Part shown: piece after piece, positions 603-42,658 of the stretch
Layout of the letters: every line of letters begins with the position of its first letter
Position numbering within the stretch: the stretch's first letter is position 1
Assembly (NCBI RefSeq): GCF_014649535.1
Contig: NZ_BMTF01000001.1
Coordinates: 241,872-305,871, forward strand
DNA: 64,000 bases
Direction of reading: 5' to 3'
Source: Streptomyces gelaticus
GTDB lineage: Bacteria > Actinomycetota > Actinomycetes > Streptomycetales > Streptomycetaceae
Notes under the pieces: model-generated
The model's input: the letters and a program-made list of their open reading frames with translations, nothing else
Told to the model about the DNA's origin: nothing
Database searches by the model: none
Made by a program: the position numbers and the translations under genes

Positions 603-1466
603 TCAGTCCTTGCCGATCAGACCGTCCGGGAACGCGCCCGCCGAGGCCGCCGTGAGCAGGAAGCCGCGTGCGAGCTCGGTCAGCCGCTCCACACCCTTCG
701 CGCCCAGGTGCTCGTACGGGGCCGCGTCCATCCGGTCCGTGGCCTCCTCCAGCTCCGCCCGGAGCGCGGTGCCCGCCTGCGTCAACTCGCCCTCGGCGTC
801 CAGGAGTCCGCGCCCGCGCAGCCGTTCGCAGGCGGCGTCCCAGTCCTCGCGGCGCCAGCCGCGGGTGGCGAGCACCCAGCGCGGGGACATCCCCTTGCCG
901 GTCGCCGTGTGGCTGACCAGGGCCTCCAACGGGTCGAGCCCGGCGGTCAGGAGTGCGGCGAGATGGCCGTCGCCGCGGTGTTCGCGCAGCAGCGTGGCGG
1001 CGTGCCAGTACGCCAGATGCGGCTCCTCGGGCATCGGGAGATCGGCATGGGCGGCGTAGAGCGGCCGGGCGTGTCGGGTGCACCCCTCGGCCGCGCGCAG
1101 CGCCAGTTCCGCCGCCTCGGCCAGTTCCGGGGAGACGATGATCTCCTCGCCCAGCAGCCGCCGCAGGGTGGCGTCGGCGGCACGCAGCCGGGCGTCCAGG
1201 ACCGCCTGCGGAGAGGCGACGGACCAGACTGCGGGCAGATGCCGGGCCACCAGGTCGTGGTTGAAGTTGTAGAACGTCGCGGTGACCGCGCCCGGTCCGA
1301 CGGCCCCCAGCGCGGCCGAACGCGCGACGAAATAGGCGGCGTTCGAGTCGTCGATGCCGAGCTCTCCGAGCTCCTTGCCGAGGTCGGGGGAGAAGTAGAC
1401 CGTCGAGTGCAGCGGGTTGATGGCGTGGTGACAGTGGCGTCCGGCGCGAGGCGGCAGAGTACTCAT
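603..1466 (-). CDS. SCO6745 family protein (helical, MarR/HTH-like)
   Basis: A 287-residue soluble protein. It has no signal peptide or membrane segment. Features are a conserved N-terminal segment (HHAINPLHSTVYFSPDLGKE), then mostly alpha-helical sequence with LVSHTATGKGMSPRWVLATR near residue 185, the part that resembles a winged-helix fold. This pattern matches the actinobacterial SCO6745 family, whose function is not known to me. It lies divergently from the AraC-type regulator gene, sharing a gap of about 125 bases that must hold both promoters. The first ATG is used; no strong ribosome binding site decides between this and downstream starts. Confidence 0.7.
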   Translation of the reverse strand: MSTLPPRAGRHCHHAINPLHSTVYFSPDLGKELGELGIDDSNAAYFVARSAALGAVGPGAVTATFYNFNHDLVARHLPAVWSVASPQAVLDARLRAADATLRRLLGEEIIVSPELAEAAELALRAAEGCTRHARPLYAAHADLPMPEEPHLAYWHAATLLREHRGDGHLAALLTAGLDPLEALVSHTATGKGMSPRWVLATRGWRREDWDAACERLRGRGLLDAEGELTQAGTALRAELEEATDRMDAAPYEHLGAKGVERLTELARGFLLTAASAGAFPDGLIGKD

Positions 1467-1590
1467 GACGGCACATTACCGACCGGTTGGTACGCGCGGT
1501 AACCCCGGACGGGGCCGGAACCACGACAACCCTGCCATGGCAGAAAAGGTGGGTTCTTCGTCATTGCGGCCATATGCGGGGGCCGCCAGG

Positions 1591-2592: not shown

Positions 2593-2654
2593 CCGACCGG
2601 CCGACTGACCACCTGACCGCCGGGCCGACCGACCACCTGACCGCCGCACCGCTC
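2583..2654. repeat. Three tandem 24-bp repeats between the GlxA-type and PfpI genes
   Basis: Three head-to-tail units of 24 bp start at 2583, 2607 and 2631. Each begins gaccacctgaccg and then diverges slightly. The first unit overlaps the last codons and TGA stop (2590-2592) of the regulator gene. The array sits directly upstream of the PfpI gene (ATG at 2681) and may act on its expression or may be replication slippage; the sequence alone does not say which. Confidence 0.8.
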
Positions 2655-2680
2655 GACCGCCCGACCGAGAAAGGGAACAC

Positions 2681-3316
2681 ATGCAGATCGCCATCGTCCT
2701 CTTCGACCGCTTCACCGCACTCGACGCGGTGGGCCCCCACGAAATGCTCGCCCGCACTCCCGGCGCCGACACCGTGTTCGTCGCCGAACGGACCGGCCCG
2801 GTGCGCAGTGACACCGGCACCCTCGCGCTCGTCGCGGACCAGACCTTCGCCGAGGTACCGGCACCGGACGTGGTGGTCGTGCCCGGTGGGCCCGGCCAGC
2901 GCGAACAGATGGAGAACGAGGCGCTGCTCGGCTGGCTGCGCACCGCCGATTCCACCAGCACCTGGACCACCTCCGTCTGCACCGGCTCGCTGCTGCTCGC
3001 CGCGGCCGGACTGCTGTCGGGCCGACGCGCCACCTCGCACTGGCTCCTGCTGGACACGCTGAAGGAACTCGGCGCCGAGCCGACCGGCGAGCGCGTCGTC
3101 GTCGACGGCAAGTACGTCACCGCGGCGGGCGTCTCGTCCGGCATCGACATGGGGCTCACCCTGGCGGGCCGGATCGCGGGCGACGAACACGCCCTGGCCG
3201 TACAGCTGCTGACCGAGTACGACCCGCAGCCGCCCTACGACGCGGGTTCGCCGGAGAAGGCACCGGCGGCCATGGTCGAGAGCTTCCGCGCCCAGCGCCA
3301 CTACCTCCTCCGGTAG
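2681..3316 (+). CDS. DJ-1/PfpI family protein
   Basis: A 211-residue cytoplasmic protein consisting of one DJ-1/PfpI domain. It starts IAIVLFDRFTALDAVGPHEM, has the nucleophile elbow TTSVCTGSLLLAAAGLL near residue 105 with the reactive Cys, and the partner motif ATSHWLLLDTLKELGAEP. The family includes isonitrile hydratases, chaperone-like proteins and amidases, so the reaction is not defined by sequence. The ribosome binding site is AGAAAGGGAA, 5-6 bases before the ATG. The gene follows the GlxA-type regulator on the same strand, and the two share the same fold, suggesting an ancestral duplication. It converges with the enoyl-CoA hydratase gene, 11 bases away. Confidence 0.83.
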   Translation: MQIAIVLFDRFTALDAVGPHEMLARTPGADTVFVAERTGPVRSDTGTLALVADQTFAEVPAPDVVVVPGGPGQREQMENEALLGWLRTADSTSTWTTSVCTGSLLLAAAGLLSGRRATSHWLLLDTLKELGAEPTGERVVVDGKYVTAAGVSSGIDMGLTLAGRIAGDEHALAVQLLTEYDPQPPYDAGSPEKAPAAMVESFRAQRHYLLR

Positions 3317-3327
3317 GGCGCGCTCCG

Positions 3328-4080
3328 TCAGGCGGTCCAGGTGAAGTGCGGCGCGCGCCGCTCCAGGAAGGCGGCGACCCCCTCGGCGGTGTCGCCGCTG
3401 CGGCGCGCCTGCTCCGCCCAGTACGCGTCCCGGTCCTCGCGCCCGGCGGCGAACTCCTTCGCCGCCGCCTGCGTCAGCTGCGAACGGGCCGTCAGGGTCA
3501 TCGCGTACGCCTCGACCCGCTTGTCCAGCTCACCGGCCGGCAGCACCTCGTCCACCAGACCGGTGCGCAGCGCCCGCGCGGTGTCGATCAGCTCGCCGGA
3601 GAACAGCAGGTGCTTCGCGGTGGCCGGGCCGGTCAGCGCCACCAGCCGCCGGGTCGACGACGCCGCGTACACGACGCCGAGCTTGGCCGGCGTGACGCCG
3701 AAGGAGGCGCCCTCCTCCGCGAACCGCAGATCACAGGCGACCGCCAGCTGGCTGCCGCCGCCCACGCAGTAGCCCCGGACCGCCGCGAGCGTCGGCCTGG
3801 GGAACGCGGCCAGCGCCTCCTCGGCCGCCACGGCGAGCGACTGCGGATCGTCCGCCGCCTCCCGCAGCGAGGAGATGTCCGCTCCGGCGCAGAAGGTGTC
3901 CCCGGCACCCGTCAGCACCAGCACCCGGACCGCGGGATCGGCCGCCAGCCGCTCCAGCAGACCGGGCAGTGCGCTCCACATCGCGGTCGTCATCGCATTG
4001 CGTTTGGCGGGGTTGCTGATGACGACGGTGGCGACGCCGTCCGCGACGGTGTGCTCCAGTCCGGGTTCCGTACGGTCCAT
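3328..4080 (-). CDS. Enoyl-CoA hydratase/isomerase family protein
   Basis: The frame is open further upstream, but the crotonase fold begins at EHTVADGVATVVISNPAKRN, so the ATG at 4080 is chosen, giving 250 residues. The oxyanion-hole motifs are visible: GAGDTFCAGADISSL near residue 60 and VRGYCVGGGSQLAVACDLR near residue 105. The second Glu typical of hydratases is not obvious, so hydration is less certain than membership in the crotonase superfamily. It probably acts on an acyl-CoA in fatty acid or amino acid breakdown. The gene stands alone and is transcribed divergently from the HdeD-type gene. Confidence 0.85.
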   Translation of the reverse strand: MDRTEPGLEHTVADGVATVVISNPAKRNAMTTAMWSALPGLLERLAADPAVRVLVLTGAGDTFCAGADISSLREAADDPQSLAVAAEEALAAFPRPTLAAVRGYCVGGGSQLAVACDLRFAEEGASFGVTPAKLGVVYAASSTRRLVALTGPATAKHLLFSGELIDTARALRTGLVDEVLPAGELDKRVEAYAMTLTARSQLTQAAAKEFAAGREDRDAYWAEQARRSGDTAEGVAAFLERRAPHFTWTA

Positions 4081-4160
4081 GCGCCGGATGCTATCCGTAC
4101 GGTTCGAACCTATGATCAAGAAGGGGTCGCCGATCCGGTACGTACCCCGAGGAGCTTCCC

Positions 4161-4784
4161 GTGGCAGATCCCGCAACCGAGGGCAGGCGGCTGAGCCGCA
4201 GTTTCGGCTGGCTCACCGTGCTGGGCGCCCTTCTCGTCGTGGCCGGCCTCGTCGGTCTCGTCTACACCGGCGTCGCGACGCTGACCTCGATGATCCTGTT
4301 CGGCTGGCTGCTGCTGATCGGCGGGATCGTCGGACTGCTGCACGCCATCGATTCCCGTGGCAGCGAGTACTTCTGGCTGGGTGTCGTGGTGGCCGCGCTG
4401 AACATCGCCGCCGGAATCGTCGTCATCCGCCACCCGCACGGCACGGCGGAGGCGCTGACCATGTTCGCCGCCCTGCTCTTCTTGACCGGCGGGGTGTTCC
4501 GCCTGGTGGGCAGCGTCGTGGTGCGCGGCCCACAGTTCGGCTGGACGCTGCTGCAGGGCGCATTCGGTCTGCTGCTGGGACTGCTGGTGCTCTTCGACTG
4601 GCCGCACAGCAGCCTCTACGTACTGGGTCTCTTCTTCTCGCTGGCGCTGCTCTTCGACGGGCTCGGCCTGATCGCGATGGGCGTGGGCGGACGCCGTATC
4701 GTCTCGATGGTCTCGGAACAGAGTGTGACCGGAGAGATTCCCGACTCACCCCGGCGAAACGAGCAGAAGCGGTCCAATGACTGA
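4161..4784 (+). CDS. HdeD-like (DUF308) membrane protein
   Basis: A 207-residue integral membrane protein. Six hydrophobic segments can be traced, for example LTVLGALLVVAGLVGLVYTG, FGWLLLIGGIVGLLHAI, FWLGVVVAALNIAAGIVVI and FSLALLFDGLGLIAMGVG. The repeated pattern of paired helices is typical of the HdeD/DUF308 family, linked in enterobacteria to acid resistance; the role in actinomycetes is unknown. The GTG start is preceded by GGAG with good spacing. The C-terminal tail is charged and probably cytoplasmic (ending NEQKRSND). Confidence 0.8.
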   Translation: MADPATEGRRLSRSFGWLTVLGALLVVAGLVGLVYTGVATLTSMILFGWLLLIGGIVGLLHAIDSRGSEYFWLGVVVAALNIAAGIVVIRHPHGTAEALTMFAALLFLTGGVFRLVGSVVVRGPQFGWTLLQGAFGLLLGLLVLFDWPHSSLYVLGLFFSLALLFDGLGLIAMGVGGRRIVSMVSEQSVTGEIPDSPRRNEQKRSND

Positions 4785-4919
4785 GTCATTCGCGTCCTGA
4801 CCGATCAGAACATGTCGATAGAGGTCGATTTCTTTTCAGTGACCCGGCCCGGACCGACTACGCCCCGCACTCTGTACTCGACGTGCAGTCACCATCGAGT
4901 GGAGAGCGGGTACCGGACT

Positions 4920-5375
4920 ATGGAGAGCCGCGGCAGTGTCCCCGCCCGGCCCGTGTCGTACGAGGGAGTCTGGCGGTTCACCGCCCCGGCCGTGGACGTC
5001 TCCGTACCGCAGGCCCGGCACGCGGTGCGCGACCTGCTCCAGCGCCAGGGCGTGCCGCTGGACGACGACCTCGCCGACGGGCTGCTGCTCATCGTCTCCG
5101 AGCTGGTCACCAACGCGGTGAAGCATGCCGCGCTGCTCTCGCCGGAGCTCGCCGTCGAGGTGGCCGTCGGCGAGGAGTGGGTCAGGGTGTCCGTCGAGGA
5201 CAACCATCCCTACCGTCCGAGCGCCCTGGAGACGGACTACGCGCAGACCGGCGGGCGCGGTCTGCTGCTGGTCCGGGAGATCACCCGGGAAGCGGGCGGA
5301 GCCTGCGATGTGGAGCACACCGCAGGCGGCGGAAAGATCATCTGGGTGGCGCTGCCACTGAGCCCGCGGCCCTGA
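4920..5375 (+). CDS. ATP-binding protein of the RsbW/anti-sigma type (HATPase_c)
   Basis: A GHKL-fold ATPase of 151 residues when begun at the ATG at 4920. An upstream ATG at 4812 would add a low-complexity extension without family similarity. The N-box is ELVTNAVKHA (about residues 60-70), the G1 box is represented by VSVEDNHPY and the G2 region by TGGRGLLLVREI. This is the standard architecture of the many small Streptomyces serine-kinase-type anti-sigma or regulatory ATPases. The partner sigma factor or anti-anti-sigma factor is not adjacent, so the target is unknown. The gene converges with idi. Confidence 0.82.
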   Translation: MESRGSVPARPVSYEGVWRFTAPAVDVSVPQARHAVRDLLQRQGVPLDDDLADGLLLIVSELVTNAVKHAALLSPELAVEVAVGEEWVRVSVEDNHPYRPSALETDYAQTGGRGLLLVREITREAGGACDVEHTAGGGKIIWVALPLSPRP

Positions 5376-5414
5376 GCACCGGCGCTCGTCGGCGCACACG
5401 GTGCCGTCCGCCCG

Positions 5415-6014
5415 TCACCAGCCGGCGGACGGCCCCGTCAGCTCCCTGATAGCCGGGCGCGCCGCGTCCAGCACCGTCATGAACCAGGCCGAGAACGGCG
5501 ACCGCGCATGCCGCTCGGCCAGTTCCTCGGCCGTCACGAACGCGGTCTCGCCGACCTCCTCCGGATCCGGGGCCGGCCGCTCCTGTGCCATCCCCACGAA
5601 GAGATGGTTGAACTCCTGCTCCACCAGACCGGAGGCCGGGTCGGGGTGGTTGTAACGGACCGTGCCCGCCTCGGCCAGCAGGGAGGGCGAGATCCCCAGC
5701 TCCTCGTGGGTGCGCCTCGCGGCGGCGGCGAAGGGCGCCTCGCCGGGGTACGGGTGGCCGCAGCAGGTGTTCGACCAGACACCGGGGGAGTGGTACTTGC
5801 CGAGCGCACGGCGCTGGAGCAGCAGCCTGCCCTGCTCGTCGAAGAGGAAGACCGAGAAGGCCCGGTGCAGTCGGCCGGGCGGCTGATGGGCGGCGAGCTT
5901 CTCCGCCGTACCGATGGTGGTGCCGTCCTCATCGACCAGTTCGAGCATGATCACTTCTGCTGTGCCGTTCGACGAGCTGTGCGCCGCGGTGGCTGGTGTG
6001 GTCGGCATACCCAT
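5415..6014 (-). CDS. idi: Isopentenyl-diphosphate delta-isomerase, type I
   Basis: A 199-residue Nudix-fold enzyme that interconverts IPP and DMAPP, the C5 units for all isoprenoids including the hopanoids encoded downstream. The type I signatures are visible: HRAFSVFLFDEQGRLLLQRR, the catalytic-Cys region WSNTCCGHPYPGE, and RTHEELGISP, which corresponds to the Nudix box. The cofactors are Mg2+/Mn2+ and the enzyme is cytoplasmic. The N-terminal first 20 residues are variable; starts at 6014 or at the ATG two codons later are equally plausible. It lies about 10 kb from the hopanoid operon. Confidence 0.93.
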   Translation of the reverse strand: MGMPTTPATAAHSSSNGTAEVIMLELVDEDGTTIGTAEKLAAHQPPGRLHRAFSVFLFDEQGRLLLQRRALGKYHSPGVWSNTCCGHPYPGEAPFAAAARRTHEELGISPSLLAEAGTVRYNHPDPASGLVEQEFNHLFVGMAQERPAPDPEEVGETAFVTAEELAERHARSPFSAWFMTVLDAARPAIRELTGPSAGW

Positions 6015-6109
6015 CCTTCGCTATGGTCCCGGCCCGGTGCGCCGGTCCCGTCGATTCCGGTCAAGTCTGCCGTACAAAAGCCGCTTGTCCGCACCTCGGG
6101 GTCTGGCAT

Positions 6110-6149
6110 GTCCGGTCCCGACGCACGGCGGCGTGCGTCGGGACCGGAC
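6110..6149 (-). terminator. Stem-loop terminator after the methyltransferase-acetyltransferase gene
   Basis: An 18-bp perfect inverted repeat (6110-6127 and 6132-6149) with a 4-base loop gcgg lies immediately downstream of the minus-strand stop codon at 6156-6158. There is no T tract, which is common for Streptomyces terminators. It also separates this gene from idi. Confidence 0.8.
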
Positions 6150-6155
6150 GGCGCG

Positions 6156-7424
6156 TCAGACGCCGAAGGCGGCCGGGTAGCGGATCGTGCCCCGCGGAAC
6201 CGGCACGGATTCGTCCAGCACCAGCGCCATCATGGCCTCGTCCGGGACGTCGAAGCCCGGCCGGATCCCGTACCGCGACGCCGGTACGAAACCGAACCTC
6301 GGGTAGTAATCGGGATGGCCGAGCACCAGGACGAGTGACTCGCCGCGCAGCCTTGCCGCGTCGAGCACCGCCCGCACCACGGCCTGCCCCGCACCCCGGC
6401 GCTGGTGTTCCGGGGCCGTCGCCACCGGGGCCAGCGCGAGTGCCGGAACGTCCCCGACCCGGCACCGGGTCAGCAGGGCGTACGCCGCGACGTCCCCGTC
6501 CGGGCCGTCCGTCGCGACCCGGGAGAGGCCGGGCAGCCAGGCCGCCGGGTCGGCGCGCAGCGCATCGACGAGAGCGGCCTCGTCCGGCGTCGGGAACGCG
6601 GCGGCGTTGACCGCGTGGACGGCCGCCGTGTCCGCCGCCGTCTCCGGCCGGGTCCTCCAGCGGGGGCCGGCGGGGCGCAGCACGTAGCAGGCGTAGCCGT
6701 ACTCCGTGCCGTGGTCGCGCCGCATGGCCAGCTCCTCGCGGGTCGCCGCGAGCGCCCACGCCATGCCGGGAGCCGACGCGTCGGCGGCCTCGACCCGCTC
6801 GGCGAGCGGGGTGTAGTACTCGTCCCAGTCGCTGTCGGGCTGCACCAGCGCCCCGAGGACGTGGTATCCGGCCGCGACGGCGGCCGCGGTGTTGCCCGCC
6901 ACGGGGCGCATCGACGTCTGCTGCTCCCAGAAGGCGCGCGCCTCGGCCGTCGGTGTGTCCGTCGTCCAGACGCACTCGCTGACGACCAGGGAGCCACCCG
7001 GGGCGAGCAGTCGCTTCCAGTCGCGCAGTGCGGTGTCGAAACCGATGATGTACGCCGACCCCTCGGCCCAGACGAGGTCGAACGACCCGTCGGGGAAGTC
7101 GGGGCCGGACAGCTCCGCCATGTCGGCCCGGACCGTACGGACGCGGTCGCCGAGCCCGCGGGCGTCGGCCGCCTCCCGCAGTTCGTCGAGGAACGGCTGG
7201 TGGAGGTCGACGGCGGTCACCTCGGCGCCGGACTCGGCGGCGAGGAGCAGCGCGGCCCGGCCGGGACCGCAGCCCAGATCCAGGACGCGCGGACGGTGCG
7301 GCAACGGGCCGACGAGCGCCAGCAGCCGTCGGGCGGTGGCATCGGAGCCGGGGCTCTGCCGGGGCAGGCCGTGGTGCAGGGAGAAGAACGCCTCGGTACG
7401 GAAGGCGTGGTCGTTGTCGGTCAA
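6156..7424 (-). CDS. Fusion of SAM-dependent methyltransferase and GNAT N-acetyltransferase
   Basis: A 422-residue two-domain protein. Residues about 1-250 are a class I SAM methyltransferase: motif I VLDLGCGPGRAALLLA, the acidic end of strand 2 at TAVDLHQPF, and post-motif DLVWAEGSAYIIGF. Residues about 255-400 are a GNAT acetyltransferase: the acetyl-CoA loop VAPEHQRRGAGQAVV-like segment (VATAPEHQRRGAGQAVV) followed by LVLGHPDYYPRFGFVPAS. Each domain is known alone; a single chain would couple methylation and acetylation of one or two substrates, which are not identifiable. The start is a TTG preceded by AAGGG. A 22-codon ORF and a hairpin lie upstream in the leader. Confidence 0.75.
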   Translation of the reverse strand: MTDNDHAFRTEAFFSLHHGLPRQSPGSDATARRLLALVGPLPHRPRVLDLGCGPGRAALLLAAESGAEVTAVDLHQPFLDELREAADARGLGDRVRTVRADMAELSGPDFPDGSFDLVWAEGSAYIIGFDTALRDWKRLLAPGGSLVVSECVWTTDTPTAEARAFWEQQTSMRPVAGNTAAAVAAGYHVLGALVQPDSDWDEYYTPLAERVEAADASAPGMAWALAATREELAMRRDHGTEYGYACYVLRPAGPRWRTRPETAADTAAVHAVNAAAFPTPDEAALVDALRADPAAWLPGLSRVATDGPDGDVAAYALLTRCRVGDVPALALAPVATAPEHQRRGAGQAVVRAVLDAARLRGESLVLVLGHPDYYPRFGFVPASRYGIRPGFDVPDEAMMALVLDESVPVPRGTIRYPAAFGV

Positions 7425-33942: not shown

Positions 33943-34788
33943 GTGGCAGACGATTCGAGAAAAAATCAACGTGGCGTCATCAACCGACAGGGCGTCATCG
34001 GGTCGTACGCGGCGATCGGCGACAGCTTCACCGAGGGAGTCGGCGACCCCGGCCCGGACGGGACCTTCGTCGGCTGGGCGGACCGTTTCGCGGTACTTCT
34101 CGCGGACCAGCTCCCGGACCCCGATGCGGCGACGGGCACCGAGGGCTCCGCGCACGGCCATTTCAGGTACGCCAATCTCGCCGTACGAGGACGCCTCCTC
34201 GACCAGATCGTCGAGGAGCAGGTGCCGCGCGCCAAGGAGCTCGCCCCCGACCTGGTGAGCTTCTGCGCGGGTGGCAACGACATCATCCGGCCGGGCACCG
34301 ACCCCGACGACGTGGCCGAGCGCTTCGAGCGCGCCGTCGCCGAACTGACCGCGGCGGTCGGCACGGTCATGGTCACCACCGGCTTCGACACCCGTGGCGT
34401 TCCCGTGCTGCGCCATCTGCGCGGCAAGATCGCCACGTACACCGCCCATGTGCGGGCCATCGCCGACCGCTACGACTGCCCGGTCCTCGACCTGTGGTCG
34501 CTGCGGTCCGTCCAGGACCGGCGTGCCTGGGACGACGACCGGCTCCATCTGTCGGCCGAGGGACACACCAGGGTCGCCCTGCGCGCCGCCCAGGTCCTCG
34601 GCATCGACGTGCCGGCCGACCCCGACCAGGAATGGCCCCCGCAGGAGCAGCGCGGCACCCTCGAAGTGCGGCGCGACGACATCCACTGGGCGCGCGAGTA
34701 CCTGGTTCCGTGGATCGGCCGGCGGCTGCGCGGCGAATCCTCCGGTGACCACGTCGAGGCGAAGCGGCCGGACCTGCTGCCGCTCTAG
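33943..34788 (+). CDS. SGNH/GDSL hydrolase family protein
   Basis: A 281-residue predicted esterase/lipase. All catalytic blocks are present: block I SYAAIGDSFTEGVGDP (Ser about 28), block III FCAGGNDIIRPGTD, and block V DDDRLHLSAEGHTRVA (Asp and His). There is no signal peptide, so it is likely cytoplasmic or associated by other means. The first 20 residues are charged, and the GTG at 33943 gives the family's usual length. The substrate cannot be told from sequence. It converges with the STM4011-type gene. Confidence 0.88.
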   Translation: MADDSRKNQRGVINRQGVIGSYAAIGDSFTEGVGDPGPDGTFVGWADRFAVLLADQLPDPDAATGTEGSAHGHFRYANLAVRGRLLDQIVEEQVPRAKELAPDLVSFCAGGNDIIRPGTDPDDVAERFERAVAELTAAVGTVMVTTGFDTRGVPVLRHLRGKIATYTAHVRAIADRYDCPVLDLWSLRSVQDRRAWDDDRLHLSAEGHTRVALRAAQVLGIDVPADPDQEWPPQEQRGTLEVRRDDIHWAREYLVPWIGRRLRGESSGDHVEAKRPDLLPL

Positions 34789-34827: not shown

Positions 34828-35718
34828 TCAGGCACGTCCGGCGGGCGGCGGCGGCAGCGACGCCGGTATCCGCTCCAGCACCCCGCCCGCGAAGACGTCG
34901 TACAGCGGCAGCGTCTCCAGATGCACATAGCCGATGTGGCAGTCGCAGACCGCCAGCGGACAGGCGCGCGGACCGAGGGCCCGCCGGTAGCTCCCGTCGT
35001 AGAGATTGCCGAGCTCGGCCGGGACGAAATGGCAGCGCCGCACCGTGCCGTCACCGTCCACCGAGACGACCGACTCACCGGTCCTGCAAGGCAGTCCGGC
35101 CGACCGGTGCGGATGCCGGCTGTACGGGAAGAGCGGGTCGATGGCCGTCCAGCGGTCCGCCTCCTCGTCCGTGTACGTGTGGCCCTCCGCCGCGTTCACC
35201 CAGAGATAGACCTCCTCGGGCAGCGCGGCGCGCAGCCGCCGCGCCTCGTCGAGGTGGTCGTCGAGCCCGACGACCCCGACACTGTGCCGGATGCCGAGCG
35301 CGGTCAGCTCCCGGCACTTGGTGAGGAACCGCTCGTAGGGTGTCTGCCCCGGGTGGTACGTGCACCACAGCGCGATCTTCTCTCGGCCCGCCTCGCCGGC
35401 CTCGGCCAGCCACCCCGTACGGCTGCTGATGTTGGTCTGGATCGCGACCCGACGGATGTGCGGCAGCCGCGCCAGATCGACCAGCGCCCGGCGGTACCAG
35501 GAGCGGACCAGCCCCTCGCCCCACGGCGTGAACAGGACCGAGATCCGGTCACCGGTCTGCCCCGCGGCCCACTCCGTGAACCGCTCCAGCGCGGCCCGGT
35601 CGGCCAGCAGCTGCTCCCGGCTGTCGCGGCGCTTGGCGAACGGGCAGTACGGGCAGTCGTAGTCGCACGAGGCGAGCGGGCCACGGTAGAGGATCGTCAG
35701 GTCCATCGGCGCGCTCAC
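34828..35718 (-). CDS. STM4011 family radical SAM protein
   Basis: A 296-residue radical SAM enzyme. The cluster-binding motif CDYDCPYC gives Cys18, Cys22 and Cys25, unusually close to the N-terminus. A C-terminal group of cysteines (SAGLPCRTGES, VRRCHFVPAE, RACPLAVCDCHIGY) could bind an auxiliary Fe-S cluster, as in SPASM-type maturases. Its GTG start overlaps the stop of the STM4012-type gene by 4 bp, so it is the last gene of a six-gene operon. The reaction is unknown; the name comes from the Salmonella cluster. Confidence 0.85.
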   Translation of the reverse strand: MSAPMDLTILYRGPLASCDYDCPYCPFAKRRDSREQLLADRAALERFTEWAAGQTGDRISVLFTPWGEGLVRSWYRRALVDLARLPHIRRVAIQTNISSRTGWLAEAGEAGREKIALWCTYHPGQTPYERFLTKCRELTALGIRHSVGVVGLDDHLDEARRLRAALPEEVYLWVNAAEGHTYTDEEADRWTAIDPLFPYSRHPHRSAGLPCRTGESVVSVDGDGTVRRCHFVPAELGNLYDGSYRRALGPRACPLAVCDCHIGYVHLETLPLYDVFAGGVLERIPASLPPPPAGRA

Positions 35719-37085
35719 TTCAGCTCGTACGCGGCCATCGCGGCCCGTACACCGGGGGAGAACAGCTCCGGGCCCAGGGCGTCGGAGTGGGCCAGGCCCT
35801 CGGGGGAGAGTCGTAGTAGTCCGGCGGCCCCGGCCGACGTGTCGAGCCAGCCGCGCGCCTCGAAGCCGGCCAGCTCAAGGGGGAAGTCGTCGGCCGGCGA
35901 CGTGCCGAACCGCTCCCGGTAGTCGGCCAGTCGAAGCCCCTCCGCCTGGAGGACCGACTGCAGGAGGTGGCGACGGCGCGCCTCCTCGCCGTCTACGTAC
36001 CGCCCGACCTGCGCGCGGGAGAAGTCCTCGGTGGCCGCGTAGCCGTCGATGATCGCCCGCACCTCCCGCATCTCCACCGCGTAGTCGAAGGAGTAGTGCA
36101 GCTTCGTGGTGTACGAGCGGGCACCGCACCCCAGACCGATCATGCCGTCGGTCTGGCAGGCGTAGTCGTCCGGGCCGTCCGTGCGCGGGGCATCGGCGCG
36201 ACGGAACATCCGCATCGAAACCTGCTCGTAGCCGTGGGCCAGGAGATGGTCCCGGCCCGCTCGGTACAACCGCAGCCGCTGCTGGTCCCAGGCCGCGTCC
36301 GCCGCGGCGCCACCGTCCGCGTCGAGCCGTCCGAGACCGGTCAGCGGGCGCACGTACAGCGGGTAGAGATACAGCTCCTCCGGCCGCCAGCCGAGCGCCG
36401 CGTCCAGCGAGGCGCGCCAGCTCTGCTCGGTCTGCCCGTCGATGCCGTAGATCAGGTCGATGTTGAGAACCGGGATGCGGGCATCGCGTATCCGGTCCAG
36501 CGCCGCCTCCACATCGGCCCGCCGCTGCGGGCGCACCGCGGCCCGCGCCTCCGCCTCGACGAAGCTCTGCACCCCGATGCTGATCCTGGTCGTACCGCGG
36601 TCGGCGAGGACGGCCAGCCGGTCGGCCGTCGCGGTCGACGGCGACGTCTCGACCGACAGCGGAACGGCCCGCAGATCGGCGCCCATCCGCTTCTCCGCGA
36701 TGTCGCAGAGCCGCTCCAGTTCCGCGGCGGTCAGGAACGTGGGAGTGCCCCCGCCGAACGCGGCCGCGGCGAAACGCACCGGCTCCTCGTCGCCCAGCGC
36801 GTCCCGGACCGCGGTGGCCTGCCGGTCCAGCGCGTCGAGATACCGGGTCGTCAGCTCGTCCGGGGCGCCGATGCGGGTGAAGAGATTGCAGAATCCGCAG
36901 CGGACCTCGCAGAACGGTATGTGCAGGTAGAGCGAGAGCGCGTCCTTGCGCTCGGCCGCCCACAGCTCGCGCAGTGCCGGCCGGTCGGCGAGCGGCCGGT
37001 AGACGGTCTTGTGCGGGTAGGCGTAGACATAGCTCCGGTACGGCCGGACGGCCGGCGCGGCGCTCGTGGTGCTCATGGTGCTCAT
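35715..37085 (-). CDS. STM4012 family radical SAM protein (HemN-like)
   Basis: A 456-residue HemN/coproporphyrinogen-dehydrogenase-like radical SAM protein. The motif LHIPFCEVRCGFCNLFTR gives Cys59, Cys63 and Cys66, followed by AAAFGGGTPTFLTAAELERL. It also keeps VLNIDLIYGIDGQTEQSW and MIGLGCGARSYTTKLHYS, typical of HemN/HemW relatives. It is unlikely to be the cell's heme enzyme because of its place in the operon. It is coupled to the STM4013-type gene (ATGA overlap) and to the STM4011-type gene. The alternative ATG three codons in is possible. Confidence 0.85.
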   Translation of the reverse strand: MSTMSTTSAAPAVRPYRSYVYAYPHKTVYRPLADRPALRELWAAERKDALSLYLHIPFCEVRCGFCNLFTRIGAPDELTTRYLDALDRQATAVRDALGDEEPVRFAAAAFGGGTPTFLTAAELERLCDIAEKRMGADLRAVPLSVETSPSTATADRLAVLADRGTTRISIGVQSFVEAEARAAVRPQRRADVEAALDRIRDARIPVLNIDLIYGIDGQTEQSWRASLDAALGWRPEELYLYPLYVRPLTGLGRLDADGGAAADAAWDQQRLRLYRAGRDHLLAHGYEQVSMRMFRRADAPRTDGPDDYACQTDGMIGLGCGARSYTTKLHYSFDYAVEMREVRAIIDGYAATEDFSRAQVGRYVDGEEARRRHLLQSVLQAEGLRLADYRERFGTSPADDFPLELAGFEARGWLDTSAGAAGLLRLSPEGLAHSDALGPELFSPGVRAAMAAYELK

Positions 37086-37954
37086 GGTGCGATGGCCCCC
37101 GGTTCCAGGAAGAAGTGCGCGTACGGAACGGTCCAGACGGACTCGTGCCCGAGCCGGTGACCGGTGTAGCCGTCGTCCCCGTACGCCGTGCCGTGGTCCG
37201 AGCAGACGATGGCGAAACAGCGACGGCGGCTGCTCGCGGCGGCGAAGAGCCTGCCGATGTGGGCGTCGACGTACTCCAGGGCCGCGGCGTGCGTGTCACG
37301 GGAGTCGCCCGCCTCGCGGGTGGCGCCCGGGCGGTGGAACCAGTTGGGCTGGTGCAGGGCGGAGACGTTGACGAAGAGGAACAGCCGCTGCTCCTCGGGG
37401 AGCCCGGCGACGACCTCCTCGGCACGGGCCACCTGCGCCTCGAAGGAGGTGGGCGACGCCACGCCGAACTCCGGCTCCCAGTGGCTCTCCTGGAACATGC
37501 CGGGCAGCACGGAACCCAGCGGCGCCTGCTTGTTGAAGAAGCCGACACCGCCGATGCACACCGTGCGGTAGCCCACGTCGGCGAGGCCGGAGAGCAGATC
37601 CGGCGTGTCGAAGACGAAGGTCCCCGAGGCGGTGGACTCACTGCCCGCGAAACGCGCCGCGAACAGCCGGGGGTGCGGCCCCTGCCCCGCCGGTGTGGGC
37701 AGGAATCCCGCGAAGATCGCCTGGTGCGAGGCGTAGGTGAAGCTACCCGGCGCATGCCGCTTCTCCCAGACACCGCCCGGCAGATGGCGCGCCAGATGCG
37801 GGATGCGGCCCGCGGCGGCGAGCTCCACCGCCACGTCGTGGCGCAGCGTGTCGAGGGTGACGAGCAGCAGATCGTGGCTGCCCACGATCTCGCTCATGTC
37901 CGGGTTCCGGGCGTCCACGGGAGTGCGCGGGGTGTCAGGCGGTGGTGGTTGCAC
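37082..37954 (-). CDS. STM4013/SEN3800 family hydrolase (alkaline phosphatase/sulfatase superfamily)
   Basis: A 290-residue protein of the alkaline phosphatase-like fold. The metal-site start LLLVTLDTLRHDVAVELA has Thr where sulfatases have the formylglycine Cys/Ser, and the second metal motif is CFAIVCSDHGTAYGDDGYTG. So it may be a phosphodiesterase, phosphatase or a sulfatase-like enzyme that needs no formylglycine. No signal peptide is present, so it is cytoplasmic. Its 5' end overlaps the STM4014-type gene by 20 bp. The start choice (37954) could be trimmed to the ATG at MSEIVGSHD. Confidence 0.83.
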   Translation of the reverse strand: MQPPPPDTPRTPVDARNPDMSEIVGSHDLLLVTLDTLRHDVAVELAAAGRIPHLARHLPGGVWEKRHAPGSFTYASHQAIFAGFLPTPAGQGPHPRLFAARFAGSESTASGTFVFDTPDLLSGLADVGYRTVCIGGVGFFNKQAPLGSVLPGMFQESHWEPEFGVASPTSFEAQVARAEEVVAGLPEEQRLFLFVNVSALHQPNWFHRPGATREAGDSRDTHAAALEYVDAHIGRLFAAASSRRRCFAIVCSDHGTAYGDDGYTGHRLGHESVWTVPYAHFFLEPGAIAP

Positions 37955-39089
37955 GGTGGTCCCTTGCTGTGTTCATTACGGCGGCGACCTGCGCCGCGTA
38001 GGTGTCCAGGCCCTCGGCGCCGCTGCCCGGAAGACCGGTCAGCCGCGGCAGGAGATCACCGAAGGCGTTGACCTCGCCGACGGCGAAGCGCCGCCAGCCG
38101 GTCGAGGGCAGCAGATCGACACCCACACACAGGGTGTCCGGGAAGCACGCCGCGGCCCGTTCGCACACGGCCAGGGCCTCGCTCCAGCTGCCGCCCGCAG
38201 CCTCGACGGCGGCGCGGACCTCGCCGAGATTCCCGCGCTCGCCGCCGAGATGGAGATTGGTCATGGGGGAGCGGCTGGTGCGCACCACGGCGTGGGTGGC
38301 CCGGCCGGCCACCACGACGACCCGCAGATCCGTCGCCCGGCCCCGCCGGGTGGCCTTGGGCAGCCAGCGCTCGATGTGCAGCCCGTCCGGAGCGAGCGCG
38401 TCGACGATCGCCGCGACCTCCCGCTCCGTCGTGACGCGGCGCACCCGCAAGGAGTTGAAGAGCCGGCCCGAGGCGTCCCGCTCCACCGAGGTGGTGGCCC
38501 TGACCCGGCCGGGCCCGGCCGTCTCCACGGCCAGGACCCCCGAGGCGGACGAGCCGTGCGCGAGCTTCACGAAGAATCTGGGCAGACCGCGGTCCGCCGT
38601 CCGCTCCCGTACGTCCGCCCAGTCCCGCACCACGGGCGCGGCGACTCCCGAGGTCGGTGAGGCCGGGACCGGTACCCCTTCGCCGGTGAGCACGCCATGG
38701 CAGAGCCGCTTGTCGAACAACACCGCGACATCGCCGGGATCGTCGAGCAGCACGGCACCCGCAGCGGCCGCCGCGCGCTCCACCTCCCGCACGGCCGCGG
38801 TGAACCGGGCGTACCAGAGGGCGGTGCCTTCGACCCTTGTCGGATCCCCGACCGCGCGGAGCAGCCGCTCCACCTCGGCGTCCTCACCCGGCGAGTCCAT
38901 CCGTACGGTGTCACCGGGCAGAAAGCCCGCTTCGCCGCGCAGGACGTCGAGCCAGGACACGACACGCGCCGCCGGCAGCCCGGCGGCGCGCACGGCGTCC
39001 TGGAAGAGCGTGACCCGGCGGTTGCCGGGCACACCCACGACGGCGAAGCGCGGCACCGGGCCGGTCGTACTACTCGTCGACGGCGACAT
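37935..39089 (-). CDS. STM4014 family protein, ATP-grasp-like
   Basis: A 384-residue protein. The N-terminus (RFAVVGVPGNRRVTLFQDAV) is a Rossmann-like pre-ATP-grasp region. The body has the ATP-grasp pattern: LFDKRLCHGVLTGEGVPVPA, FVKLAHGSSASGVLAVE (lysine binding the phosphate), IERWLPKA, DLRVVVVAGRATHAVVRTS, and VGEVNAFGDLL near the C-terminus, where metal ligands usually sit. It therefore probably forms an amide, ester or thioester by an acyl-phosphate. The acceptor is unknown. It overlaps neighbours on both sides by 20 bp. Confidence 0.82.
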   Translation of the reverse strand: MSPSTSSTTGPVPRFAVVGVPGNRRVTLFQDAVRAAGLPAARVVSWLDVLRGEAGFLPGDTVRMDSPGEDAEVERLLRAVGDPTRVEGTALWYARFTAAVREVERAAAAAGAVLLDDPGDVAVLFDKRLCHGVLTGEGVPVPASPTSGVAAPVVRDWADVRERTADRGLPRFFVKLAHGSSASGVLAVETAGPGRVRATTSVERDASGRLFNSLRVRRVTTEREVAAIVDALAPDGLHIERWLPKATRRGRATDLRVVVVAGRATHAVVRTSRSPMTNLHLGGERGNLGEVRAAVEAAGGSWSEALAVCERAAACFPDTLCVGVDLLPSTGWRRFAVGEVNAFGDLLPRLTGLPGSGAEGLDTYAAQVAAVMNTARDHRATTTA

Positions 39090-40041
39090 AGCGGTGGCCG
39101 TCCTCTTCCGGATCCCAGTCCTCGGCCTCGTCGATGTCGGTGTTCACCCGGTCCGGACCGAGCAGGTTCCCCAGGCGTTCCACCAACGGCTCGCTCATGT
39201 AGTGGTGGTGCAGGTCCAGCGAGGTCAGGTGGGTGAGCGGCTGGCCCGAGAGCAGCGCTTCGGCGCCTTCGTCGCCCAGGGTCCCCATCGCGAGGGAGAG
39301 CGACTCCAGCCGGGCGACGACCGGGGCGGACGCCACGGCGGCGGCGATCTCGTCCTGGATTTCGCTGTTCTGCAGCCCCAGATGGCGCAGGGCGGGGAAC
39401 GTCGCACCCGAGAGCAGCGGGGCGAGGTCCTCGACCGAGGTGTCACCGCCGTACTCGGAGACACCGAGCCAGAGTTCGAGGCGCTCCAGCGCCGGGAGAT
39501 CGGAGGCTCCGATCGCCCGCACGATGCCGGACGGAAGCCCGCCCGACTCGAACCGCAGCGATTTGAGCGCCTTGTGCCGTACCGGCTGCAGATCCAGTGA
39601 CGATCCGTCGGAGCCCGCATCCCCGGAGCCGCGTACCGCCAACTCCTCCAGCTGCCCGAACGCCTCGACCACCGGGGTGATGTCGCACATCTCCAGCCAC
39701 GACAATTCGCACTCCTCGCTGACGACGTCGGCGAGGAAGAGCGCCCGCAGGGACGGGAAGCGCTCGGCATCACGGACCAGCAGATCGGCGACCGGGGCGA
39801 AGGGCTCGTACTCCTGCTGCCACCAGCCGCCGATCACCAGCGCCCGCACCCGCGTCGTGTCGACCGTGTCGACGAAGTGCTGCCACAGCGGGCCGAATGC
39901 CAGATCGCCCTGCCAGGCGCTCTCCAGCCGCCATGCGACCGAACCGGCCTCCGGCAGCGGGGTGGCAGGGGTCCGGCCGGGACCGGGAAGGGTGTGGACG
40001 GGCAGACCGTGGAACGACTCGGGGTGTTCGATGTCGGTCAT
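39070..40041 (-). CDS. STM4015 family leucine-rich-repeat protein, copy A
   Basis: A 323-residue protein with leucine-rich repeats of the ribonuclease-inhibitor type from about residue 85 on: LPALERLELWLGVSEYGGD, FPALRHLGLQNSEIQDEI, VARLESLSLAMGTLGDEGA and LTHLTSLDLHHHYMSEPL. The N-terminal 80 residues hold a conserved segment VRALVIGGWWQQEYEPFAP. The C-terminal tail is strongly acidic (DIDEAEDWDPEEDG). There is no signal peptide. It may be a scaffold or a substrate of the operon's enzymes. It is a tandem paralogue of the next gene. Confidence 0.85.
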   Translation of the reverse strand: MTDIEHPESFHGLPVHTLPGPGRTPATPLPEAGSVAWRLESAWQGDLAFGPLWQHFVDTVDTTRVRALVIGGWWQQEYEPFAPVADLLVRDAERFPSLRALFLADVVSEECELSWLEMCDITPVVEAFGQLEELAVRGSGDAGSDGSSLDLQPVRHKALKSLRFESGGLPSGIVRAIGASDLPALERLELWLGVSEYGGDTSVEDLAPLLSGATFPALRHLGLQNSEIQDEIAAAVASAPVVARLESLSLAMGTLGDEGAEALLSGQPLTHLTSLDLHHHYMSEPLVERLGNLLGPDRVNTDIDEAEDWDPEEDGHRYVAVDE

Positions 40042-40047
40042 GGCACG

Positions 40048-41004
40048 TCACTCCGAGGCCGAGGTGTAGCGGCCTTCGACGCCGCGGTCGCCCCAGGGCT
40101 TCTCGCGCTCCGACACATCGACCCGCACGCCGTGCGGCCTCAGCGCCTCCAGGACCCGGCGCTCCATCGGCTCGGTCATGAAGTGGTGGTGCAGATCGAG
40201 CTTTTCGAGATGGGTCAGCGGCTGGCCGTCCAGCAGCGCCGCCGCGCCCTCGTCGCCCATGGTGCCCTCCGACAGGTCCAGGACACGCAGCTGCGCGACG
40301 ACCGGGGCACTCGCGACGGCCGTCGCGATCTCGTTCTGCAACTCGCTGTTGCGCAGACCGAGATGGGTGAGCCGGGGGAATCGGGTGCCGGAGAGCAGCG
40401 GGGCCAGGTCGGCCACATCGGCGTCGCCCCCGTACGCGGACACACCGAGCCAGAGGTCGAGCCGCTCCAGCGCGGGCAGCTCGCTGTCCAGAACACCCCG
40501 GATCACCGAGACCGGCAGACCGCCGGTCTCGATGGTCAGTGAACGCAGCCGCTCGTGCTTCGTGGGGGAGAAGACCAGGTCGGTGCCGCCGCGCACGCCC
40601 AGTTCGAGCAGACCGGGGAAGGCCTTCAGCAGAGCCGTCACATCCGACTGCTCGATCCAGGAGATTTCGTTCTCCTCCGAGATCATGTCGCCGACGAAGA
40701 CGGCCTCCAGTGAGGTCAGCCGGTCGGCGGCGGCGATGATCAGATCGATCGGGTAGGACGAGGGCTCCTCGTACGACTCGCCCCACTGGCCGACTATCAG
40801 GGCCCGCACCCCGGCCGGGTCGACCGCCTTCAGGAACGCCTGGAAGGCGTCCTCCCAGGTCATCTCGGAATCGTCGTCGTACGGATCGACCGAGATGCGC
40901 CAGGCTGCCGCATCGGCGGCCTGCACGGGCGCCTCACCCGTCGCGTGCTGGAAGTCGACAGTGGGCAGGCCGAGCAACTCGTGCAGATGGTCCACACCGG
41001 ACAT
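40048..41004 (-). CDS. STM4015 family leucine-rich-repeat protein, copy B
   Basis: A 318-residue paralogue of copy A. The repeats align closely (LPALERLDLWLGVSAYGGD, FPRLTHLGLRNSELQNEI, LTHLEKLDLHHHFMTEP), while the N-terminus and C-terminal tail differ. The central segment VRALIVGQWGESYEEPSSYP matches VRALVIGGWWQQEYEPF of copy A. The ATG at 41004 follows CAGGAG with 9-base spacing and is preferred to 41046. It is the first gene of the minus-strand operon, divergent from the small-protein gene at 41195 across 190 bp. Confidence 0.86.
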   Translation of the reverse strand: MSGVDHLHELLGLPTVDFQHATGEAPVQAADAAAWRISVDPYDDDSEMTWEDAFQAFLKAVDPAGVRALIVGQWGESYEEPSSYPIDLIIAAADRLTSLEAVFVGDMISEENEISWIEQSDVTALLKAFPGLLELGVRGGTDLVFSPTKHERLRSLTIETGGLPVSVIRGVLDSELPALERLDLWLGVSAYGGDADVADLAPLLSGTRFPRLTHLGLRNSELQNEIATAVASAPVVAQLRVLDLSEGTMGDEGAAALLDGQPLTHLEKLDLHHHFMTEPMERRVLEALRPHGVRVDVSEREKPWGDRGVEGRYTSASE

Positions 41005-41194
41005 GACCGTGGGCTCCTGGTACTGGGGAACGGCTGATGCCCACAAGGTCTATCAAGCCGCACTGACAACGGCGCGACCGGGACCGCCGCGACGGCCCGC
41101 CGTTCCGGTCGGACGCCGGTCGATTGTCAGACCCTGCCCGTAGCGTTTTCTCCGTGGTCGGCACAGCGGGTGCGGCCATCGAGGGGAGACGTCT

Positions 41195-41521
41195 GTGTAC
41201 CGGCAGGGCGATGTACTGATCGTGTCGTTGGACGAGTCGGCTGTGCCGGCGCATCTCGTGGACGCGCCGGGTGAACCGAGGGACGGCAAGGGCCGCATGG
41301 TCCTCGCGCTGGGCGAGGTCACCGGCCATGCCCACGCGGTCCAGGGCCCGGGCCGGCTGATACGCGAGGCGGGGGTGTTCGGGCCGATGCTGCTCCATCT
41401 TCCGGACGGCGGCCGGGTGGTGCACGAGGAGCACGCGGCGATACCGCTCTCGAAGGGCTGGTACCGCGTGGTGCGCCAGCGGGAGTACACACCGGGTGCG
41501 GTCCGCATCGTCGCGGACTGA
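41195..41521 (+). CDS. Conserved small protein of unknown function upstream of the DUF6745 gene
   Basis: A 108-residue soluble protein. It is mainly beta-strand by pattern, with a GEVTGHAHAVQGPG motif (about residues 40-53) and HEEHAAIPLSKGWYRVVRQR near the C-terminus, ending REYTPGAVRIVAD. The histidines suggest a metal or nucleotide site, but nothing establishes this. The GTG start follows GGGGAG. The DUF6745 gene lies 135 bp downstream on the same strand, and I recall such pairs together in other genomes. I do not recognise a function. Confidence 0.65.
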   Translation: MYRQGDVLIVSLDESAVPAHLVDAPGEPRDGKGRMVLALGEVTGHAHAVQGPGRLIREAGVFGPMLLHLPDGGRVVHEEHAAIPLSKGWYRVVRQREYTPGAVRIVAD

Positions 41522-41656
41522 AGGCGGTCCGGGGAGAAGCCCGGCGATCCCGCGGCGCACGGCGTACGACGCACAACGACACGAGGCACAGCGCGCCGCG
41601 AACAACACAGCACACGAACACCGATCGCAGAACAACACAGGGGACAGGGAAGACCG

Positions 41657-42658
41657 ATGCAGTACGTGGACTCATGGCGGGCCGTGGCAGCGGCGACCGG
41701 CGCGGCCGACCGGTCCGCGGCCGAGGACGGGCTGCGGCTCGCCTACCGCAGCGCAGGACTCGCCGAGCCGGAGCAGATCGTCTGGGTCGACTCGCCGAGG
41801 GCCGCGGTGGAGGCCGTGGAGAAGCTCGTCGACGCCGGACGCTCGGTGCGCGACGAGGTGCGGACGCGGCCCTGGGCCCAGGAGCGTCGCCGGATGTACG
41901 ACGAACTGGGCCCGGCGGGCTGGTCCGCGCTGTGGTCCGCCACGGGCGCACAGCTCTGGGAGACCACCGCGGCACTGGCCGATCGGATCAGGGCCGGTGT
42001 CGTCGCCGACCTCGCCGGGCGCCCCGAGGACGAGTCCGCCGTCCGGCTGGTGCTGCTCGACGCGGTTCTGGGCCAGCACGACGCGGCCTGGCTCGCCGCT
42101 TTCGACGGCCGGGGCGACCGGCTCCGCGGTCTGGCCGAGGTGGCCAGGCACGCGGGCTGGTGGTGGCCCTATGAGCGCGTCGTGGTGATCAGCGAGCGCC
42201 CGGAGGCGCTGTACCGGGACGAGGCGGGCCGGCTCGACCGCGGGGACGGCCCGGCGCTCGCCTACCGCGACGGCTTCGCGCTCCACGCCTGGCGCGGCAT
42301 GCCCGTGCCCGCCGAGTTCCTGGAAGAGCTGAACTCCCTCACCCCGAAGCGGATACGCGAGGAGGAGAACGCGGAACTGCGCCGCGTGATGCTGGAGTTC
42401 TACGGCTACGACCGCTACCTCGCCGAATCCGGCGCCGAGCCGGTCCACCGCGACGAGACGGGCGTCCTCTGGCGCATCGCGATGGACGGCGACGAGGACG
42501 TGGTCATGGTCGAGGTGGTCAACTCCACCCCGGAGCCGGACGGCACACACCGCGTCTACTGGCTGCGGGTGCCGCCGAGCACCAGGACCGCGAAGGACGG
42601 CGTGGCCTGGACCTTCGGACTTCAGGGCGACGCGTACGAACCGGTGCGCCAGACCTGA
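41657..42658 (+). CDS. DUF6745 domain protein
   Basis: A 333-residue soluble protein. The N-terminal half is helical (VDSPRAAVEAVEKLVDAGRS, YDELGPAGWSALWSATGAQL). The C-terminal half carries the likely domain core RDGFALHAWRGMPVPAEFLE, LRRVMLEFYGYDRYLAESGA and VYWLRVPPSTRTAKDGVAWT, ending with the short YEPVRQT tail. It has no catalytic motif I can name. DUF6745 proteins are often beside leucine-rich-repeat proteins, as here. The ATG follows AGGGAAG. A weak pattern shared by both pair members is an RQ/RQREYTP-like tail. Confidence 0.72.
   Translation: MQYVDSWRAVAAATGAADRSAAEDGLRLAYRSAGLAEPEQIVWVDSPRAAVEAVEKLVDAGRSVRDEVRTRPWAQERRRMYDELGPAGWSALWSATGAQLWETTAALADRIRAGVVADLAGRPEDESAVRLVLLDAVLGQHDAAWLAAFDGRGDRLRGLAEVARHAGWWWPYERVVVISERPEALYRDEAGRLDRGDGPALAYRDGFALHAWRGMPVPAEFLEELNSLTPKRIREEENAELRRVMLEFYGYDRYLAESGAEPVHRDETGVLWRIAMDGDEDVVMVEVVNSTPEPDGTHRVYWLRVPPSTRTAKDGVAWTFGLQGDAYEPVRQT

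Follow-up and report, generated by a model that had tools for sequence, protein, structure and literature searches.

A near-invariant C-terminal glutamate on the leucine-rich repeat protein of STM4011-STM4015 gene clusters suggests a possible amide-loaded carrier

According to passages of one report (PMC10433800), the ligase LysX links aminoadipate to the gamma-carboxyl group of the C-terminal glutamate (Glu54) of the carrier protein LysW; the EDWGE tail of LysW is recognised by a GSWGR motif of the ligase, a five-residue motif determines the amino acid, and a strain with an E54A carrier is an arginine auxotroph. Passages of a second report (PMC9303977) describe pearlins, whose biosynthesis attaches a group through an amide bond to the C-terminal end of a carrier encoded by a gene, with a radical S-adenosylmethionine (SAM) enzyme modifying the attached group. 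Here we analyze a cluster of STM4011-STM4015 family genes in Streptomyces gelaticus, located in a 64,000-nucleotide stretch of contig NZ_BMTF01000001.1 (the window, to which all positions refer unless a locus is named) from a 7.75 Mb genome. The cluster, whose near relatives come from Streptomyces, encodes two radical SAM enzymes (STM4011 and STM4012), a hydrolase (STM4013), an ATP-grasp ligase (STM4014; ATP, adenosine triphosphate), and two copies of a leucine-rich repeat (LRR) protein (STM4015). Among the open-access papers searched, the STM4011-STM4015 names turned up in just two, as one table row apiece, and DUF6745, the family of a neighboring gene, in none. Comparison of sequences indicates that a C-terminal glutamate (Glu) is conserved on STM4015, which is a new observation.

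We assembled 91 loci: the window, 10 plasmid regions, and the best 80 of at least 460 relatives found by scanning genomes with an STM4011 alignment. They were annotated with profiles built from nine loci, and judging by record titles about half of the 91 are from Streptomyces. In alignments, STM4015 shows an LRR body, a variable acidic linker, and a conserved C-terminal block close to R-Y-V-A-V-x-E. The final residue is Glu in 119 of the 121 closed STM4015 open reading frames (ORFs) above 100 bits, with the exceptions being a fragment of a broken gene (locus L134) and a copy in L080 that has four residues beyond the Glu. As the loci were picked by STM4011 or STM4014, the tail had no role in their selection. 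A second set, which overlaps the first in genes and otherwise consists of the best-scoring STM4015 matches, and is therefore biased towards tails, ends in Glu in 61/64 cases; here the exceptions are one broken gene counted twice and the same L080 copy. Pooling the two sets (190 proteins) and clustering at 50% identity yields 36 clusters; 34 end in Glu, and the remaining two consist of one half of a broken gene and of an LRR match that is unrelated. Across 51 aligned proteins the last column is Glu in all, and mean entropy is 1.01 bits in the tail, 1.44 bits in the LRR core, and 2.57 bits in the linker. The strict pattern R[YF][VTI]A[VL][SGAD]E terminates 83 of 124 STM4015 ORFs of the loci. Of the remaining 11,996 closed ORFs there, counted with shadow frames, 280 end in Glu and none ends in the pattern.

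Both proposed carriers of the window are encoded on the minus strand. STM4015 copy a (39070..40041; NCBIfam NF038076, 375.2 bits, cut-off 275) ends in RYVAVDE, encoded at 39073..39093, and copy b (40048..41046; 389.8 bits) ends in RYTSASE, encoded at 40051..40071; the start codon of copy b is uncertain (TTG at 41046 or ATG at 41004). A DNA-level tail pattern, which misses the copy b variant, has a single hit across the genome, within copy a. An AlphaFold2 model of copy a (mean predicted local distance difference test score, pLDDT, 94.6) is confident in the LRR region and has no secondary structure in residues 307-323. Its best fold match is 2ra8 from Bacteroides fragilis (E = 3.8e-19, 29% identity), which is matched up to residue 351. 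Residues 352-354 of 2ra8 are ITE, as we had guessed beforehand from the Paenibacillus and Salmonella tails, and we take the eight residues after 354 to be an expression tag.

The proposed tail-loading ligase gene, STM4014 (37935..39089, minus strand; NF038074, 457.1 bits, cut-off 175), overlaps copy a by 20 base pairs (bp), and its start codon falls within the copy a tail codons. STM4014 and STM4015 are adjacent and on the same strand in 80 of the 81 loci that have both (exception, L087), and in four loci whose STM4011 lies on another contig (L162, L165, L170, and L173) STM4014 still adjoins STM4015. In the window's genus (246 genomes), STM4015 is present in every one of the 108 genomes that have STM4014 (E 1e-50), and the ligase lies no more than about 430 bp from an LRR gene in 107/108, as judged by eye from listed places and with G390 and G498 counted via second STM4015 copies. 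In genome G445, 2.2 Mb separate the ligase from the listed LRR gene, but the ligase is immediately preceded by a broken LRR piece with Glu as its last residue. The cluster of this genome is split (L211, L212), with the LRR piece and STM4014 in one part and STM4015, STM4013, STM4012, STM4011, and the DUF6745 pair in the other.

Four genomes of the genus have STM4015 and no STM4014 match at E 1e-50. In G322, STM4015 (L065) stands at a contig edge and keeps its Glu. In G385, G320, and G361, STM4015 is isolated, with no cluster gene within ~6 kb; its LRR domain is intact and the Glu is lost. We found six isolated STM4015 copies without the Glu in all, among them those of all three of these ligase-less genomes. 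Four isolated Streptomyces copies (L194, L195, L209, and L210) form a clade without the Glu tail, three of them ending in G-P-[LV]-[ST]-Y, and are possibly a repurposed LRR subfamily.

Since STM4014 has no Pfam ATP-grasp match at E 1, the ATP-grasp label given to it in an earlier sequence-only reading of the window needed testing. Profile and fold matches uphold the label. A profile of 28 STM4014 sequences searched against solved structures returned LysX (1uc8, E = 2e-6) and RimK (5zct, 4iwx) as its top matches. The best fold matches of an AlphaFold2 model (pLDDT 92.9) were ArgX:LysW (3vpb, E = 1.4e-12), LysX (3vpd), 5k2m (LysX/ArgX with LysW-gamma-AAA), DcsG, RimK, and PsnB, and realignment gave Z scores of 24.6 for ArgX (3vpb), 23.8 for LysX (3vpd), and 23.6 for both LysX/ArgX (5k2m) and RimK (5zct), where differences below 1 are ties. 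Residues K127, K175, D254, R256, D325, and N341 are invariant (80/80) and E339 nearly so (79/80), counted, as for every family, after removal of proteins below score or length cuts; some of these conserved ATP-grasp residues we take to be catalytic. T277, N278, L279, and L281 are also invariant (80/80). In the profile alignment, LysX K-P-V-I-G-S (presumably followed by WGR) faces K-L-A-H-G-S of the STM4014 consensus, and LysX I-T-N-T-A-R-G-G faces M-T-N-L-H-L-G-G of the window protein. Such conservation at the same places with different letters would be expected if another tail and another amine were bound. Co-variation between ligase loop and tail showed no clean pattern by eye in one alignment. 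As judged from the model and the profiles, STM4014 is a ligase of the LysX/ArgX fold class with intact ATP-grasp residues.

RimK acts on the C-terminal Glu of ribosomal protein S6. Its standing as a top match to STM4014 by both profile and fold, together with an LRR core that is well conserved and has invariant residues of its own, would fit a scheme in which STM4015 is itself the end product: STM4014 would add one or more amino acids as RimK does, and the LRR protein would then bind a partner in a modification-dependent manner. We consider this quite unlikely, as taken alone it leaves unexplained the two radical SAM enzymes and the hydrolase that travel along in the 81 of 91 loci that contain all five core families.

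The two radical SAM enzymes are encoded at the distal end of the minus-strand genes. STM4011 (34828..35718; NF038073, 409.5 bits, cut-off 200) appears SPASM/twitch-like, with a CX3CX2C motif (C18, C22, C25) and five further cysteines (C211, C229, C253, C258, and C260) invariant in 91/91 proteins. Alongside these extra cysteines its Pfam SPASM score is 13.8 (cut-off 21.5), and its C-terminal part weakly matches SkfB, the sporulation killing factor maturation protein (E = 6.5e-4). STM4012 (35715..37085; NF006067, 647.8 bits, cut-off 380) is HemN-like, with an invariant CX3CX2C motif (C59, C63, and C66; 86/86), and its nearest solved structures are HemN (1olt) and the methyltransferase NocN (9p2u). 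Radical SAM chemistry makes pyrroloquinoline quinone from Tyr-Glu and mycofactocin from a C-terminal Tyr. The STM4015 tail might similarly be the core peptide of a ribosomally synthesized and post-translationally modified peptide with a very large leader, the modified heptapeptide being cut off as a cofactor-like product; the radical SAM enzymes would then cross-link or trim R-Y-V-A-V-x-E, and STM4014 would close an amide or add an amino acid. The cysteine pattern of STM4011 and its SkfB match are in line with this, as are the Tyr or Phe found at position -6 in 113/121 tails and the presence of the graspetide ligase PsnB among the top fold matches of STM4014. However, near-invariance is limited to the terminal Glu: Methylobacterium, Rhodococcus, and Salmonella have Ser or Asn at position -6, and the Salmonella tail has no R-Y pair. 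In addition, a 300-residue LRR leader would be unusual, and no protease gene recurred in a coarse clustering of neighboring genes. We judge this account unlikely.

STM4013 (37082..37954, minus strand; NF038075, 421.8 bits, cut-off 250) belongs to the alkaline phosphatase superfamily and matches sulfatases and nucleotide phosphodiesterases. D16, T54, D234, H235, H247, and H251 are present in 82/82 proteins, and the Asp/His set resembles a metal site. Formylglycine sulfatases carry Cys or Ser in the sulfatase motif, and phosphodiesterases use Thr nucleophiles. As Thr (T54) replaces the motif Cys/Ser in 82/82 proteins, we rejected a formylglycine sulfatase as the identity of STM4013.

We propose, at about even odds (roughly 0.5) and by analogy with described carriers, that the LRR protein STM4015 serves as a carrier: STM4014 would load its terminal Glu through an amide bond, and the radical SAM enzymes and the Thr-type hydrolase would then act on the tethered group. 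STM4014 with ATP would phosphorylate a carboxylate of the terminal Glu, and the activated Glu would be joined via an amide bond to an amine, which by the precedent of LysX, ArgX, and RimK would most likely be an amino acid. Judging from their families, STM4011 and STM4012 would remodel this group while it is tethered, and STM4013, as a phosphatase/phosphodiesterase-type enzyme with a Thr nucleophile, would take off or transfer an ester group. Additional LRR copies would serve as further carriers. The analysis shows the families, the conserved set of genes, the tail, the fold of the ligase, the gene adjacency, and the pattern of loss; that the carrier is loaded and by what chemistry, in which order the enzymes act, and what they make are inferred. 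The sequence-only reading had suggested a modification system with the LRR proteins as scaffold or substrate; wide co-occurrence of the genes, the near-invariant C-terminal Glu, and the adjoining LysX/RimK-like ligase give this idea strong comparative support.

Several observations weigh against amide loading. On the ligase side, the Z scores of glutathione synthetase (22.0), DcsG (21.9), and Ddl (~20) are not far below those of the LysX group, STM4014 is only 13-20% identical to LysX/ArgX over the aligned part, and ATP-grasp enzymes use many substrates. The tail-reading GSWGR motif is not in STM4014, where the aligned segment of the window protein is GSSASG, and the tail itself is R-Y-V-A-V-x-E as against the E-D-W-G-E described for LysW (PMC10433800). 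The closeness of DcsG and glutathione synthetase would also suit a tail that is a docking peptide, gathering the enzymes on an LRR scaffold while STM4014 ligates free small molecules, and Glu could be conserved for docking without any chemical use. We regard this as very unlikely, since a conserved last residue with a free carboxylate across about ten phyla would suit chemistry better, and since the Glu is kept even by three divergent LRR proteins (63-86 bits; two in L073, one in L074). Further points against amide loading come from the carrier and its genetic context. Residues 311-323 of the STM4015 model have a pLDDT of ~78-80, so the tail may pack on the LRR and not hang free. Locus L148 has STM4011 and STM4012 without STM4013, STM4014, or STM4015 beside them, and the coarse neighbor clusters showed neither a recurring release enzyme nor a recurring exporter. 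In a tree, two of the three ligase-less STM4015 copies share a tailless clade with copies from the ligase-bearing genomes G326 and G371, which implies few independent losses of the Glu. Finally, isolated copies in ligase-bearing genomes kept the Glu in 9/12 cases and lost it in 3/12, in a non-random sample that drew on 16 of the 51 multi-match genomes (a thirteenth stretch, from G496, was left out as it belongs to a cluster); one of the nine keepers, from G418, comes from a contig of 5.2 kb and may not be truly isolated.

The loci come from approximately ten phyla, as assigned from record titles and general taxonomy: Actinomycetota, Deinococcota, Bacillota, Pseudomonadota, Myxococcota, Planctomycetota, Chloroflexota, Verrucomicrobiota, Bacteroidota, and Acidobacteriota. 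This spread rules out a Streptomyces-only curiosity, and STM4014 and STM4015 co-occur outside close relatives, as a modification system of the kind put forward in the sequence-only reading would have it. The commonest gene order is 4015-4014-4013-4012-4011; L074, L101, and L149 are rearranged with all core genes kept. Several, though not all, of the ten incomplete loci begin or end at a contig edge, and in L073 the STM4014 missing at the locus is encoded elsewhere in the same genome. An Armatimonadetes contig carries STM4011 and STM4012 only, and its genome has no STM4015 match. Within the window's genus, 112/246 genomes have STM4015 matches: one in 61 genomes, two in 42, three in eight, and four in one (these are counts of matches and not of genes; in G407 one gene yields two). 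LRR copy number thus varies in the genus, and tandem arrays reach four STM4015 genes in L080. In L103 of Actinomadura rifamycini, positions 1021-6747 hold six STM4015 genes in tandem, every one ending in Glu. Genome G360 carries a decaying copy of the cluster (L197), with STM4015, STM4014, STM4012, and STM4011 in pieces. The cluster family is rare outside: STM4014 scores above cut-off in 6/296 genomes sampled across the window's phylum, and STM4015 at E 1e-15 is found in 1/398 genomes of one phylum and 2/198 of another, the center genome being included in each.

Two other identities were set aside. A viral system was rejected after one search of viral contigs, made with the STM4011 alignment, in which no relatives turned up. 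Anti-phage defense seems improbable: the single match to PADLOC families was a weak one of a radical SAM protein (PDC-M51A, E = 6e-7), and the other seven window proteins had none at E 0.01. No additional family recurred convincingly outside the Streptomyces group among the listed neighbor clusters, which are coarse and mostly shadow ORFs. A GDSL-type hydrolase gene adjoins STM4011 in the window (33943-34788), and its ORF family recurs in 25/91 loci, all of them within a hand-made list of Streptomyces-group loci.

All eight genes described in the sequence-only reading are present, six on the minus strand (41046 down to 34828) and two divergent on the plus strand at the LRR end. Its two radical SAM enzymes and two LRR paralogs were borne out by the NCBIfam scores, all five core families of the window lying above their curated cut-offs, and its hydrolase without a formylglycine Cys/Ser proved to have Thr at that position. 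The close spacing it reported holds for the two LRR genes (6 bp apart), for LRR copy a and STM4014, and for STM4013/STM4012 and STM4012/STM4011 (4 bp overlaps). However, a 20 bp overlap of STM4014 and STM4013 depends on a GTG start at 37954; in two annotated Streptomyces relatives STM4013 starts at the equivalent of 37897, which in the window would leave a 37 bp gap after STM4014, and on this comparison 37897 is the more likely start. The reading also saw no short precursor peptide. The operon interior indeed has no space for a precursor gene, but one could lie elsewhere, as no systematic short-ORF search was made around the operon; the LRR protein's own tail may be the missing "precursor peptide".

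The divergent pair consists of a small His protein of 108 residues (41195..41521, plus strand; phrog_27831 match) and a DUF6745 protein (41657..42658, plus strand; Pfam PF20530, 390.7 bits, cut-off 27). Both genes are present in 51/91 loci, in several arrangements relative to the core genes, neither is present in 38, and one alone is present in two (L083, with the small gene at a contig edge, and L096). In the 246 genus genomes, DUF6745 (E < 1e-100) is found in 94/112 genomes with STM4015 and in 2/134 without, a comparison uncorrected for kinship; a weaker DUF6745 class stands alone in nine genomes, one of which has STM4015. In the small His protein, H45, H47, H77, and H80 are invariant (14 aligned sequences), and a C-terminal Asp is found in 51/51. 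The pair also occurs, with no core cluster in the stretch read, in Microcystis phage Ma-LMM01 (neighboring genes 175 and 174) and in a spring siphovirus. The sequence-only reading had listed the pair as neighbors of the cluster; with neither gene in 38/91 loci and the pair also found in phages, we view it as an optional module that occurs independently. Our guess is that it performs an accessory step. The small His protein and DUF6745 genes adjoin at 5968-7499 of L154 (Ma-LMM01), among replication genes, and at 4622-6315 of L155. Actinobacterial plasmids (L153, 4252-6573; L151, 1123-1932) also encode DUF6745 proteins and, as far as they were read, lack the core cluster; the L153 protein is larger, with the domain forming its C-terminal part.

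Taken further, and more tentatively, the cluster might represent a new class of amide-tethered biosynthesis, in which an LRR solenoid would act as both reusable carrier and docking frame, be charged in a LysX-like manner, hold a metabolite or cofactor built by radical SAM enzymes, and occur as tandem carriers, with the DUF6745 pair as an optional later step. If this is true, covalent carriage would be a new function for LRR proteins, and the metabolite or cofactor that scattered bacteria of about ten phyla make could be tracked down. The terminal Glu and the adjoining LysX/RimK-like ligase give families of "function unknown" a simple testable role.

Among related clusters and proteins, Salmonella STM4011-STM4015 has the same five families in the same order as the window, although the Salmonella plasmid copy encodes a single LRR protein and the DUF6745 pair is absent from the 7 kb around it. 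The B. fragilis protein 2ra8, with its ITE at 352-354, is a solved STM4015 relative that has ~70 additional N-terminal residues and a title that names no function. RimK and S6 share with STM4014 and STM4015 the fold class and a C-terminal Glu acceptor. STM4014 nevertheless falls below the NCBIfam rimK_fam threshold (16 bits, cut-off 143.4), and its LRR partner is dedicated and encoded in an enzyme cluster. Compared with the pearlin systems (TglA/TmoA with PEARL ligases), the STM4015 system would have in common a C-terminal amide-tethered group and radical SAM chemistry, as far as the passages of PMC9303977 describe them. It differs in that the ligase is an ATP-grasp enzyme and not a tRNA-dependent PEARL (no Pfam or NCBIfam match to a lantibiotic dehydratase-like PEARL ligase in the eight window proteins), in that the proposed carrier is an LRR protein, and in the lack of a recurring protease gene in the coarse clusters. 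With LysW/ArgW and LysX/ArgX of Thermus and archaea, the shared features are the ligase fold class, a partner protein whose conserved tail ends in Glu, and, in STM4011-STM4015 clusters, a ligase gene that adjoins the proposed carrier gene. In contrast, the proposed carrier here is an LRR protein of ~320 residues and not a 54-residue zinc protein, and the cluster has two radical SAM enzymes in place of recognized lysine or arginine pathway genes. As an EDWGE tail, a GSWGR motif, and a small zinc carrier were not found, we do not file the STM4015 system under LysW. Our best reading is that the proposed STM4015 system would, by analogy, work like the LysW and pearlin carrier systems.

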